Positions 24,278-28,220 of a stretch of DNA of 64,000 nt are shown in pieces. Position 1 is the first letter of the stretch; each line of letters begins with the position of its first letter. Below the pieces are notes generated by a model. That model saw only the letters and a list, made by a program, of their open reading frames with translations, was not told where the DNA came from and ran no database searches. Source of the DNA: an uncultured Methylophaga sp. (GTDB lineage: Bacteria > Pseudomonadota > Gammaproteobacteria > GCF-002020875); NCBI GenBank assembly GCA_937877715.1, contig CALEHW010000014.1, forward strand, positions 39,574 to 103,573, written 5' to 3'. The position numbers and the translations under genes were made by a program.

Positions 24278-24613
24278 TTACATATTGATGCAGCACTTGA
24301 CGTCATACTTCTCTTCGATATATCTGGCGAGAACTCTCTGCTGCTCCATGGAGAGCTGAACACAGAGCAGAATCAGCTGCGCTAATCCATCATCCTCGGA
24401 GTAGAAGAAGGCAACAGGCACCTTGAGTGCAGTTGATAGCCTGGCGATTGTCTGATCACTTGGGCGGTGACGATTGTTCTCGTACTGATTGATGCGTGGG
24501 CTGGCGGTCGCAAGGTCGATGCCAATCGCTAGCCCCAACTGTTTCTGTGACAGTTTAAGTTGCTGACGTGCTTGTTTCAGCCGTTTGCCAAAGACTATCC
24601 GTTGGCTGCGCAT
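24278..24613 (-). CDS. XRE-family HTH transcriptional regulator
   Basis: 111 aa; GKRLKQARQQLKLSQKQLGLAIGIDLATASPRINQYENNRHRPSDQTIARLSTALKVPVAFFY. Confidence 0.88.
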   Translation of the reverse strand: MRSQRIVFGKRLKQARQQLKLSQKQLGLAIGIDLATASPRINQYENNRHRPSDQTIARLSTALKVPVAFFYSEDDGLAQLILLCVQLSMEQQRVLARYIEEKYDVKCCINM

Positions 24614-24811
24614 GATCTAGTTAGTGACATTGTAGATGGTTCCCCCCAAAAGTAACTCGAACCAGACTGAGTTCTTTCCCGCCTTGTTATAATGTAGGCA
24701 CTTTATGTGGAACCACAAGCAAAAACAATTAAGTAAAACTTAATGCTGGCTATGGACATCGGTAAGGAGCGTGGCCGATGGGAGCACAGCTGGTGGGTGG
24801 CTGTATGAAGT

Positions 24812-24833
24812 TGGTGGGCCTACTTGGACTTGA
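24812..24833. repeat. Putative att site: 22-bp copy of the tRNA-Ile2(CAT) 3' end
   Basis: TGGTGGGCCTACTTGGACTTGA identical to 28144-28165. Confidence 0.85.
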
Positions 24834-24898
24834 TCGGCGAAGCCGAGACGGCCAGAGGCCGCCCGAAGGGTGAACACATAGTGTTCATCCACCAGCTG

Positions 24899-25222
24899 TT
24901 ATCCAGACCTGATAGGAGCACAGCTGTTGGGTGGAGATGGTATCCTCGATACAACCTTCTTCCTCGCCGGCTGCTTTTGTGGTGTGGTTTCCGCCGCCAG
25001 TGCGTGCATCTCCTCAAGAAATGACTTGCTGTCTCCAAGGTCGTAGCATCTGCGTTTACTCTCTGATGGTTGTACAATCCCCTCAGCCAGCAACACCGCC
25101 AGCAAAAAGGCCGGGCTGTTCGCCGACATTCCCTTGAAGAACGGATGGGGGACTCCTTCTCGGTCGGTAGTTTTTCGCTTGCGATCTTTGTCGATCAGGA
25201 TGGTTATTTTTCTCGGGGTCAT
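24899..25222 (-). CDS. Hypothetical protein of the island
   Basis: 107 aa ORF (MTPRKITILIDKDRKRKTTDREGVPHPFFKGMSANSPAFLLAVLLAEGIVQPSESKRRCYDLGD...); C-terminus runs into repeat sequence next to the att site. Confidence 0.45.
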   Translation of the reverse strand: MTPRKITILIDKDRKRKTTDREGVPHPFFKGMSANSPAFLLAVLLAEGIVQPSESKRRCYDLGDSKSFLEEMHALAAETTPQKQPARKKVVSRIPSPPNSCAPIRSG

Positions 25223-25243
25223 GGGTGTCTCTTTAGTTCGGAC

Positions 25244-25280
25244 AAAAAAAGCCCCAGAGGCCGAGTGACCTGCGGGGCTG
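25244..25280 (-). terminator. Rho-independent terminator downstream of the autotransporter gene
   Basis: Minus strand AGCCCCGCAGGTCACTCGGCCTCTGGGGCTTTTTTT hairpin + U-run. Confidence 0.8.
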
Positions 25281-25305
25281 AGTGTAGTGATTTTGGAGAG
25301 CTTTT

Positions 25306-27669
25306 TTACAGGGCAACTTTTAGGCTGAATGCACCGGAAATCTCGGCATCCTCACCTCTACTGGATCGCATGAGTGATCCGGAAAGAAACATCTCTTTGT
25401 CTAGTTGGTAGTCGATCTCAGCTCCAACTCTCAACCAGTCGGATCGGTTTTCTGCTCCAGGAATGGAGAATGGAAACATGTCGATGACTTCTCCACTGAA
25501 TGCAGCCCCTCTCCGGTCGAATCGATGAACTTCTTCCGCAATCCCTCGGATGGTGGTTTTAGAGTTGAGTATGTTTTCCGCGATGATTCCGATCCGGCTC
25601 TCTCTGCTTGTATGGGATTGTGGATCGAAGCGTGCGGGGAATCCTCCGGTGGTTTCTGTGTATCCATCGACGTCTGTGTTGGTGATCGTGTATTCAATTT
25701 TTGGAGTGATAGTGGTGTTGTCGATTGTGTAGAGATCACGCCAATCAATTCTTCCACGGATGGCTGTGGCCTTAATGGAGGTGCTTCCTTTGGAGAGATC
25801 TTCGCTTCCCGCATTGAGGTAACCTCTGTTGATGTCTGCATCCCAGTTTCCATGCAATACTGTAGCTGAGAGTAGCATGGGGCTTTCCAGTAGCTGGTGA
25901 TCCAGTTCCACCAGCAGGTACTTTCCGTCAATGTCGCTGCTACCAGAGTAGTCGAGTGCCTGATCAACTCTGCTTTTCCCTATTCCAATTCCGACTCGTG
26001 TATTGCTCTGAAAATCCACACAGGCACCTGTCTCCACAAGATGGGAGTCAGCTTTCTTAGATTGGTAATTGGCGAAGTCTCCATTGATCCATGCGCATTG
26101 ATCTTTGTTGAGCCTTTTTTGTGCAAGGAGGGGTTGGTGATGTGCTCCGTGTAGGGCGATGGAAGGGAGGGAGGAGGAGACTTGTGGAATTGAAGCGGTT
26201 GTTGTGAAGCTGTTTGTGAAGTCATTAATTGTGATGAAGCCGCGTTCACCTGTGGCCACCCAAGGTCCCCACACTTCAACTGTAGTTTCCTCCTCTGTGA
26301 CAAGAGCATTATTACCAATAATGACGGTCCCATTATCATTTACACCGGCTGGACTTTGAAGGATTATGTTTTCTGGTAAAGAATAGCCGTTGTCTGCGAG
26401 CCACTCACCTATCGATTGCATTCCTTCTGTCTCATTCCATCGAAATGCTTCGTTTGTAAGGGAAACATAATTGGTTGTGTTCAGGAGTTCAATCGGCTGA
26501 CTTGAAGACCCGATGACTACACTGCCATCCGGCGTAATACCTGTAGCAATACTATAGGTGTCTTCTTTGTGTAGGTGTCCAAGGGGCAGCATATTAGCAT
26601 TGGTTTTCCAGATGACGGCTTCTCCTGTGAGGGCATTGGCAAGATCACCAATAGAGATAAGATGTTCATCTGCTGATGCAACTGTTCCCACAACAGTGCT
26701 ACCATCTGCATTAGTTGCAATTGCAGTACTGAATAAATGATTTTCAGGTGATCCCAGATTTACGAGTCCACTGTCTTCAGTCCACCGAAATGCTCTGCAT
26801 GATAAGAAGTTGCTGCCTCTACTGAAACCAACAGCCACCTTGCCATCTCCACTGACGTCAAGTGCACTGCTGGAGGTGTCACCAGGGAGTTTTCCAAGTC
26901 CAACAAAACCTGTAGGCTCTGTCCAGATAAAAGCTTCTCGTGTTTCTTGATCTACAGGGGAAGCATTATTTTCATCATTCACAAACTCACCTACGATTAC
27001 AGAACCATCTGAACTTAACGTGGTTGCCCTGCTATAAAAACTCCAATTGTCAGGTTTATTCAAAGAAACAAGTCCTGTAGGCTCAGTCCATCGAAAAGCT
27101 TCTTTACCTTGGCTGGTTGAGCTCATTCCAATTAATGTTAAACCGTCACCACTAACCCCGGTTAAAATCTGGCTAGTGTAGCTTTCTGGTAAGAGAACAG
27201 AGTTTTCAACCACAAAGTCACCGGTTAATATGCGTGGATGATCTGTATCTTCAAGGAAAAATGACTGAGATTTGTTGTTTCGATCCCAGATGACCATTCT
27301 ATCTCTTGAGTTGATTGATAAATTTGTAGCTGAATAACCGTCTAGGTTCGGGGAGAAAACAAGGTTATTTTCATTAATCTCGTAAGATGAGAATGTATCC
27401 CTAAAACTAATAGTGCCGTCATCCGAAGAATAATCTGGGGGCGTGGTTCTGGTAGCGCCTCCTGCAATTGTGGGTGCATCAACAAACAGAGATTGGTTAT
27501 CTGCAATTATGAGAGTAGTGCTCCCTATAATTGTTGTCCCGTCACCACTTATGGCTGTAAGGTTAGATCCAGTATTGCCTTTGTTAATAACCGTAAATCT
27601 CATCCCATCACCAACAGTCACGTCAGCCATTCCTGCGCATGACCACACAGTCATTGCAGGCAAAAGCAT
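25306..27669 (-). CDS. HAF-repeat autotransporter-type outer membrane protein
   Basis: 787 aa; repeated units such as EAFRWTEPTGLVSL...DGSVIVGEF, AFRWTEDSGLVNLGS...DGSTVVG; C-terminal beta-barrel-like region ending GAFSLKVAL. Confidence 0.8.
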   Translation of the reverse strand: MLLPAMTVWSCAGMADVTVGDGMRFTVINKGNTGSNLTAISGDGTTIIGSTTLIIADNQSLFVDAPTIAGGATRTTPPDYSSDDGTISFRDTFSSYEINENNLVFSPNLDGYSATNLSINSRDRMVIWDRNNKSQSFFLEDTDHPRILTGDFVVENSVLLPESYTSQILTGVSGDGLTLIGMSSTSQGKEAFRWTEPTGLVSLNKPDNWSFYSRATTLSSDGSVIVGEFVNDENNASPVDQETREAFIWTEPTGFVGLGKLPGDTSSSALDVSGDGKVAVGFSRGSNFLSCRAFRWTEDSGLVNLGSPENHLFSTAIATNADGSTVVGTVASADEHLISIGDLANALTGEAVIWKTNANMLPLGHLHKEDTYSIATGITPDGSVVIGSSSQPIELLNTTNYVSLTNEAFRWNETEGMQSIGEWLADNGYSLPENIILQSPAGVNDNGTVIIGNNALVTEEETTVEVWGPWVATGERGFITINDFTNSFTTTASIPQVSSSLPSIALHGAHHQPLLAQKRLNKDQCAWINGDFANYQSKKADSHLVETGACVDFQSNTRVGIGIGKSRVDQALDYSGSSDIDGKYLLVELDHQLLESPMLLSATVLHGNWDADINRGYLNAGSEDLSKGSTSIKATAIRGRIDWRDLYTIDNTTITPKIEYTITNTDVDGYTETTGGFPARFDPQSHTSRESRIGIIAENILNSKTTIRGIAEEVHRFDRRGAAFSGEVIDMFPFSIPGAENRSDWLRVGAEIDYQLDKEMFLSGSLMRSSRGEDAEISGAFSLKVAL

Positions 27670-27712
27670 ATTCCTGATCCGCGTACAAAAAATAGTTATT
27701 CACTCATTAATA

Positions 27713-27797
27713 GTGTCACCTTGACACCAGAATCCTACGCCCGTTTCTGACACCATGCCAGTGTCTTTTAATTACGGGATGTTACAAATGGGTGTCA
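27713..27797. promoter_or_regulatory. Cluster of GTGTCA/TGACAC half-sites between the autotransporter and RHH genes
   Basis: GTGTCA 27713-27718, TGACAC 27722-27727 (perfect IR, 3-nt spacer), TGACAC 27748-27753, GTGTCt 27761-27766, GTGTCA 27792-27797. Confidence 0.5.
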
Positions 27798-28039
27798 CAG
27801 ATGAGAGCGTTCGCATCACGCTACGTCTTCCGGAAAAGGTGAGAGATTCCCTGCTGCTTTCCGCCAGAGCCAATCGCCGCAGTATGAACAGCGAGATTGT
27901 CTCCGCACTGGAGAGCCACAGCCACCCCACGAACATTTCCGACGGTGGCACTATGGAGGAACTATTACAGAACTGTAGGAGGCTGTCGGAGGAGAGTGTG
28001 GGAGTGGTGGTGGAATTGACCCGACTGCTGCGTCGGTGA
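27755..28039 (+). CDS. Arc-like ribbon-helix-helix DNA-binding protein
   Basis: Core MGVTDESVRITLRLPEKVRDSLLLSARANRRSMNSEIVSALE (Arc-type RHH); start may be 27788. Confidence 0.8.
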   Translation: MPVSFNYGMLQMGVTDESVRITLRLPEKVRDSLLLSARANRRSMNSEIVSALESHSHPTNISDGGTMEELLQNCRRLSEESVGVVVELTRLLRR

Positions 28040-28143
28040 GGCTGGCTATGCAGAGACCAAAGGACTGTCTATATCGAAAAATCCTTTAGTCCCAAAAATA
28101 CAAAAAGACCGACCAGAAAGTACAGTCTTTTCATGCGGTTACA

Positions 28144-28220
<77 letters not shown>

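Follow-up and report, generated by a model that had tools for sequence, protein, structure and literature searches.

The DNA analysed here, hereafter the window, is a stretch of 64,000 nucleotides from an uncultured Methylophaga sp. (assembly GCA_937877715.1, contig CALEHW010000014.1, positions 39,574 to 103,573 of the forward strand). Next to rpoD it carries an intact tRNA gene with the anticodon CAT, followed 3.3 kb away by a second copy of the last 22 nucleotides of that gene. A first-pass annotation, made from the sequence alone, had taken the two copies for the ends of a mini-island, either mobilised in trans or a decayed remnant that retained its surface-protein cargo. We analysed the repeats around both copies, the DNA between them and the corresponding sites in related genomes.

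Repeats at the tRNA-Ile2 locus

The following features were identified at and between the two copies, outside the genes of the intervening DNA.

24777–24800, minus strand: direct repeat 1 (DR1), the trailer that follows the left 22-mer (repeat search)
24800–24811, minus strand: ancestral tRNA trailer of 12 nt, ACTTCATACAGC on the tRNA strand, the same as directly after the tRNA in the relative G004
24812–24833, minus strand: identical in sequence to the final 22 nt of the tRNA; the apparent 3′ tip of a unit like the tRNA-linked repeats (TLRs) of E. coli
24834–24875, minus strand: structured insert of the TLR-like unit with hairpins CCCTTCGGG, GGCCTCTGGCC and TCGGCTTCGCCGA (46 bits with model R3, see below, the window being one of its 11 training rows; BLAST match to the tRNA-Lys unit)
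24911–24934, minus strand: direct repeat 2 (DR2), second trailer copy and start of the TLR-like unit (repeat search)
28100–28134, minus strand: hairpin and T-run directly 3′ of the tRNA, a candidate new trailer or terminator (fold z = −1.9)
28144–28220, minus strand: intact tRNA gene, anticodon CAT, adjoining rpoD (ARAGORN; Rfam RF00005, 74 bits)

ARAGORN labels the tRNA 'Met'; the assignment to Ile2 is our reading of the sequence. The 22-mer TGGTGGGCCTACTTGGACTTGA occurs exactly at 24812–24833 and 28144–28165, on the plus strand in both cases, and the right copy is the 3′ end of the tRNA including the CCA. There is no third match in the window at up to three mismatches (0.01 expected) and none in the rest of the 1.89-Mb assembly at up to two. 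The duplication described in the first-pass annotation was thus confirmed, and abundance of the 22-mer elsewhere, which would have spoken against its reading, was not observed.

Read in the orientation of the tRNA, the order is tRNA CCA end (28144), 3.2 kb of other DNA, DR2 (24934–24911), insert (24875–24834), 22-mer (24833–24812), ACTTCATACAG and DR1 (24800–24777). DR1 and DR2 form a 24-bp direct repeat with 22 of 24 positions identical, lie 134 bp apart and flank the left 22-mer. Their identity exceeds chance, the best of 300 shuffles of the region reaching 18 of 24. The predicted fold of 24834–24895 (z = −3.4) was better than that of all 200 shuffled sequences. The left 22-mer is the tip of a hairpin-rich structured unit and not a bare attachment-site fragment.

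The sample of the genus comprised five other genomes, several of them fragmented. In the closest relative, G004, the tRNA and rpoD are joined directly to ACTTCATACAGC on contig C26 and the cargo is absent; other genes (purE) lie beyond the trailer. The intact tRNA of the window is flanked 3′ by unrelated DNA in place of the ACTTCATACAG trailer. Since foreign DNA follows the CCA end here, ACTTCATACAGC is kept behind the left 22-mer and DR2 lies within the end of an open reading frame (ORF) of 107 codons, of which it encodes the final 11 residues, the inserted DNA extends from about 24935 to 28143 and leaves the left 22-mer outside. Its true left edge is thus near 24935, inside the duplicated trailer, and not at 24833. 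In G004 (L023 and L034; C26 and C23) the whole tRNA-rpoD-dnaG block is displaced from its usual neighbours and now stands beside purE.

Sister units behind other tRNA genes

A BLAST search of the window's own genome (G000) with 24740–24990 returned one other place, positions 824–872 of contig C36. Downstream of tRNA-Lys(CTT) on that contig, a 3′ fragment of this tRNA joins the same ~25 bp of insert (TCGGCAAAGCCGAGACGACCAGCGG versus TCGGCGAAGCCGAGACGGCCAGAGG), and the junction again falls at the T-loop position found in the window. An equivalent unit stands at the same place in G004, 125 bp behind tRNA-Lys, with a terminator-like trailer present twice and no cargo; the period of the unit in G004 is ~125 bp. 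In both genomes the unit lies directly behind tRNA-Lys(CTT) (L071:826–1028 on G000:C36 and L083:1539–1760 on G004:C19) and the trailer is duplicated. Comparison of the two Lys units revealed that the 22-nt tRNA copy is unchanged, with about a quarter of the surrounding unit diverged.

A covariance model of three units, those of the window and the Lys units of G000 and G004 (R1), matched the unrelated genome G030, which was outside the training set, with E = 2.7e-4. Behind tRNA-Ile2 in G030 (C4, L106:5087–5600) stands a tandem array of 143-bp units, two of them full and one partial, and each full unit terminates with the final 22 nt of the tRNA. A second model, R2, whose training included the window unit, revealed tandem units behind tRNA-Val in G175 (L121) and G282 (L123), units ending in the 3′ end of another tRNA on contigs C12 and C14 of G030, and one unit behind a CAT tRNA in G106. 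R3, the third model, covers the insert alone and contains no tRNA-derived letters; it has 11 training rows, that of the window among them, and was applied to 369 genomes belonging to the class. Matches were found in 24 genomes, 17 of them outside the training set, and in seven of these 17 a tRNA gene stands just upstream of the match: Arg(TCG) in G147 and G354, Glu(TTC) in G053, Arg(ACG) in G128 and G056, Ser(CGA) in G159 and Tyr(GTA) in G268. An 18-nt copy of the tRNA 3′ end follows at +147 to +171 in four of the seven, a copy with three mismatches at +135 in G159, and a shortened copy in G268. The insert at all seven loci is oriented opposite to that of the window, as in E. coli. No such tRNA context was seen in the stretches read around the other ten matches. 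Arrays of such units stand behind the Arg and Glu tRNAs at L142, L144, L148 and L154 (G147, G354, G053 and G128). An exact-pattern search of public genomes with the insert signature gave no match in viral contigs and three unrelated matches in genome contigs, none beside a tRNA copy. Because R2 and R3 were trained with the window unit, their scores for the window are partly circular; the findings at tRNA-Lys and in G030 are not.

By eye, the units share a common anatomy: a degenerate 5′ half of a tRNA T-arm, a structured insert (a CCC..GGG core plus a second hairpin) and the tRNA from the T-loop to the CCA. This is the anatomy of the TLRs of E. coli, which include rtT of tyrT/tyrV (Egan and Landy 1978 and Rudd 1999, as cited in PMC8144298). 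There are 22 copies at ten loci, in which 18–19 bp of the 3′ end are identical to the upstream tRNA or rRNA (PMC8144298). At tyrT/tyrV of E. coli K-12 we find 178-bp repeats, each ending in the last ~19 nt of tRNA-Tyr and preceded by GC hairpins. TLRs have no general function known, a claimed stress role of rtT has been withdrawn, and three rRNA-linked TLRs bind Hfq and CsrA in vitro (PMC8144298); an earlier paper linked rtT to BIME repeats (PMC2965389). Like these repeats, the window unit lies downstream of a tRNA in the same orientation, shares its 3′-terminal ~20 nt with that tRNA and has a GC-rich hairpin insert and a duplicated trailer; its relatives in G030, G175 and G282 occur in tandem. 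It differs from them in sharing 22 nt rather than 18–19, in the opposite orientation and weak similarity of the insert, in giving no match to the Rfam RtT family and in the 3.3 kb that separate it from its parent tRNA, a distance explained by the inserted accessory DNA.

Other systems with short tRNA-like or structured sequences were considered. A guide of a casposon or CRISPR-associated transposon (CAST) was dropped, because the Lys unit has a duplicated trailer as well and the fragment is therefore no spacer. An integron attC site was dropped, no core site being seen, and so was a simple stress-response RNA of the kind proposed in the first rtT report, that claim having been withdrawn (PMC8144298). 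The only known RNA family at the locus is the tRNA itself; sub-threshold matches are attributed to chance.

The accessory block and islands at the same tRNA

The DNA between the tRNA and DR2 contains the following features.

24935–28143, no strand: accessory DNA from the tRNA CCA end to DR2 (left edge ± ~10 bp), absent beside the tRNA in G004 and replacing the ACTTCATACAG trailer
24899–25222, minus strand: 107-aa ORF with its C-terminus fused to DR2, homologue on G005:C116
25306–27669, minus strand: HAF-repeat autotransporter, 787 aa (PF03797, beta-domain, 1.6e-23; TIGR02913, HAF repeat, 2.9e-8)
27713–27727, no strand: palindrome GTGTCACCTTGACAC between the divergent autotransporter and regulator genes, a putative operator
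27755–28039, plus strand: Arc-like ribbon-helix-helix (RHH) regulator, 94 aa (PF03869, 1.6e-9; 51% identical to the G005:C116 homologue)

The 3.2-kb block is accessory DNA, since the G004 site lacks it, the autotransporter and RHH genes are rare, and the autotransporter is off-composition. Its GC content at third codon positions is 0.41 (0.36 in the passenger), whereas 38 long ORFs of the window average 0.57 ± 0.07. Searches of 56 genomes returned the autotransporter in three, namely the window's own, G001 (58% identity over the barrel, with another passenger) and G039 (33%), and searches of 369 returned the RHH regulator in three. In G001 (C32, L038:5769–7241) the passenger joined to the barrel is unrelated to that of the window, which points to passenger swapping. 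The family matches bear out the autotransporter and the Arc-like regulator named in the first-pass annotation. The 107-aa ORF that it had called an orphan is present as described, but it does have a homologue in a relative of the genus (G005:C116, 43% identical over the aligned part), and that homologue matches the phage family PHROG 28971 (8.7e-12).

Because GTGTCACCTTGACAC lies between the divergent genes and a near copy is found at the equivalent place upstream of the RHH homologue in G005, the RHH protein probably controls the autotransporter through the shared palindrome. The homologues of the RHH gene and the small gene on G005:C116 both fall within 3.5 kb. They surround (L032) genes for small membrane proteins and for a protein with weak resemblance to TerB, and the contig may hold an island. 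The block of the window contains no defence families, and no relatives of its RHH protein or small gene were confirmed in viral contigs. Genes that mark phage satellites (PICI or P4-like), namely those for integrase, primase or packaging interference, are absent from it; what it has instead is the RHH regulator and the phage-type small gene.

No integrase separates the two 22-mers, in agreement with the first-pass annotation: the contig has no match to PF00589 (all seven matches of the genome lie elsewhere), and tblastn found no integrase remnant in the block. As that annotation had anticipated, relatives show both an empty and an alternative state of the site, G004 lacking the cargo and G001 (C21) and G009 (C5) carrying P4-type islands at the same tRNA and on the same insertion side. 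In both islands an Arm-DNA-bind_3/Phage_integrase gene stands directly beside a 49–52-bp tRNA fragment at the end distal to the tRNA. The annotation had also proposed looking elsewhere in the genome for a tyrosine recombinase linked to a tRNA-Ile2 site. No candidate for a source acting in trans was found among the genome's own integrases; the integrases at tRNA-Ile2 in G001 and G009 resemble them weakly (at most 41 bits), and the one on C46 stands at another tRNA. There (L109:3456–4679) a P4-like integrase gene adjoins tRNA-Glu(TTC).

In G039 (L036:6790–12704) two extra tRNA-Ile2 fragments follow the intact gene, one of 45 bp at a distance of 3.9 kb and one of 36 bp at 5.8 kb. Decayed DNA with no ORF longer than 107 aa fills the first interval and a porin gene (PF13609) lies in the second; the intervals resemble decayed islands with a surface protein retained. 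Outside the block of the window, a 58-nt non-coding stretch (24688–24745) upstream of a helix-turn-helix regulator gene (24278–24613, minus strand) is 84–91% identical in G002, G003, G004 and G005 and is possibly a promoter or operator.

Origin of the locus and its meaning

We read the locus as tRNA-Ile2 with its own TLR-type unit, interrupted by 3.2 kb of accessory DNA (probability about 0.77). The left 22-mer, the insert at 24834–24875 and the duplicated trailer (DR1/DR2) make up a single unit, a partial tRNA copy whose T-loop holds a structured palindromic insert and whose 3′ end is intact up to the CCA. Units of this type usually lie ~100–180 bp behind the tRNA and are probably transcribed by read-through as tRNA trailers. 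Some TLRs of E. coli are processed into small RNAs. The accessory DNA starts exactly at the CCA end of the tRNA and ends at DR2, having replaced the 11-nt trailer and severed the TLR from its tRNA. With about even odds, it came from an island that integrated at the 3′ end of the tRNA, as in G001 and G009, and then lost its distal end, with the integrase and the true attachment fragment, up to DR2. What remains would be fixed cargo, that is, the autotransporter, the divergent RHH regulator and the phage-type small gene. Such a history would account for the lack of an integrase, for the lack of a fragment at DR2 and for foreign DNA beginning at the CCA.

Several observations weigh against this interpretation. 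The intermediate that it predicts, a cargo-free tRNA-Ile2 with a TLR next to it, is seen in no relative of the genus, and G004 has neither TLR nor cargo at Ile2. The training of R2 and R3 included the window's own unit. TLRs by definition stand immediately behind the tRNA, as the Lys sister unit in the same genome does, and the window unit does not; we therefore class it as TLR-like and cut off from its tRNA, not as a standard TLR. There is no match to Rfam RtT, and R3 matched E. coli tyrT weakly (13.9 bits, E = 0.68, in the opposite orientation). As this match is suggestive, our claim is limited to the same anatomy and does not extend to proven descent. Finally, no third tRNA fragment survives at DR2, so the integrase origin of the cargo is a proposal.

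The main competitor on the last point keeps the tRNA-TLR pair and lets the cargo enter through recombination, whether illegitimate or homologous, within the repeat-rich trailer, with no integrase acting at the tRNA. No attachment fragment is found at the true left edge near 24935, and the cargo is mosaic, with homologues in G005 (RHH and small gene) and G001 (autotransporter barrel). However, the right edge falls exactly at the CCA end, as expected of integration at a tRNA, and in related genomes integrases do target this tRNA; we regard this route as possible but less likely. An assembly artefact, in which the tRNA-rpoD contig was joined chimerically to a cargo fragment through a repeat, is very improbable. 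The genome is in 74 contigs and a contig of a relative (G003:C69) breaks in this very tRNA, but the shared 22 bp are shorter than the reads, composition shifts gradually and both flanks are syntenic with relatives.

The remaining alternative stays closest to the first-pass annotation, a real mini-island or satellite bounded by the two 22-mers, an attachment site of the T-loop type, with the integrase supplied in trans. As in tRNA-integrated genomic islands of the Islander type (PMC4383910), the tRNA and a displaced 3′ fragment, here reaching from T-loop to CCA, are arranged in the correct order and orientation around accessory DNA; the ancestral trailer follows the left copy as at the G004 site, and the tRNA is a known hotspot in relatives. 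Yet the TLR insert attached to the left fragment occurs cargo-free at tRNA-Lys in G000 and G004 and at tRNA-Ile2 in G030, the supposed element encloses a duplicated trailer (DR2), the integrase islands of relatives retain 49–52 bp of the tRNA and not 22, and neither an integrase nor a remnant is present. Islands of the Islander type are bounded at both ends by the tRNA gene and its fragment; in the window the fragment is part of a TLR-like unit, the left edge is at DR2 (~24935) and 24812–24833 falls outside. The P4-type islands of G001 and G009, on the same tRNA and the same side, carry an integrase gene and the longer fragment, and the window has neither. We consider this alternative unlikely. 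The accessory nature of the DNA between the copies stands, their role as the ends of a mobile unit is not supported, and we find no evidence of past or present mobilisation of the block in trans.

Knowledge of TLRs in E. coli goes back to 1978, yet they have been assigned almost no function. No description outside E. coli and Enterobacterales was found in the literature searched, which did not cover most subscription journals. The same anatomy is now seen in several other families, apparently of the same class, at seven kinds of tRNA and with the insert either way round. At long odds, the insert could be a tiny spreading element that breaks the tRNA copies of many isoacceptors (Ile2, Lys, Val, Arg, Glu, Ser, Tyr) at one place in the T-loop and in either orientation, and the resulting tRNA-TLR pair a landing pad that traps and exchanges accessory genes such as the autotransporter. 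If TLRs were such an element, their origin could be tested by comparing tRNA loci with and without them. TLRs mimic the scars of islands: the rule that a tRNA and a displaced 3′ fragment denote an island gives false edges where a TLR is present, and island edges beside any TLR need to be redrawn.

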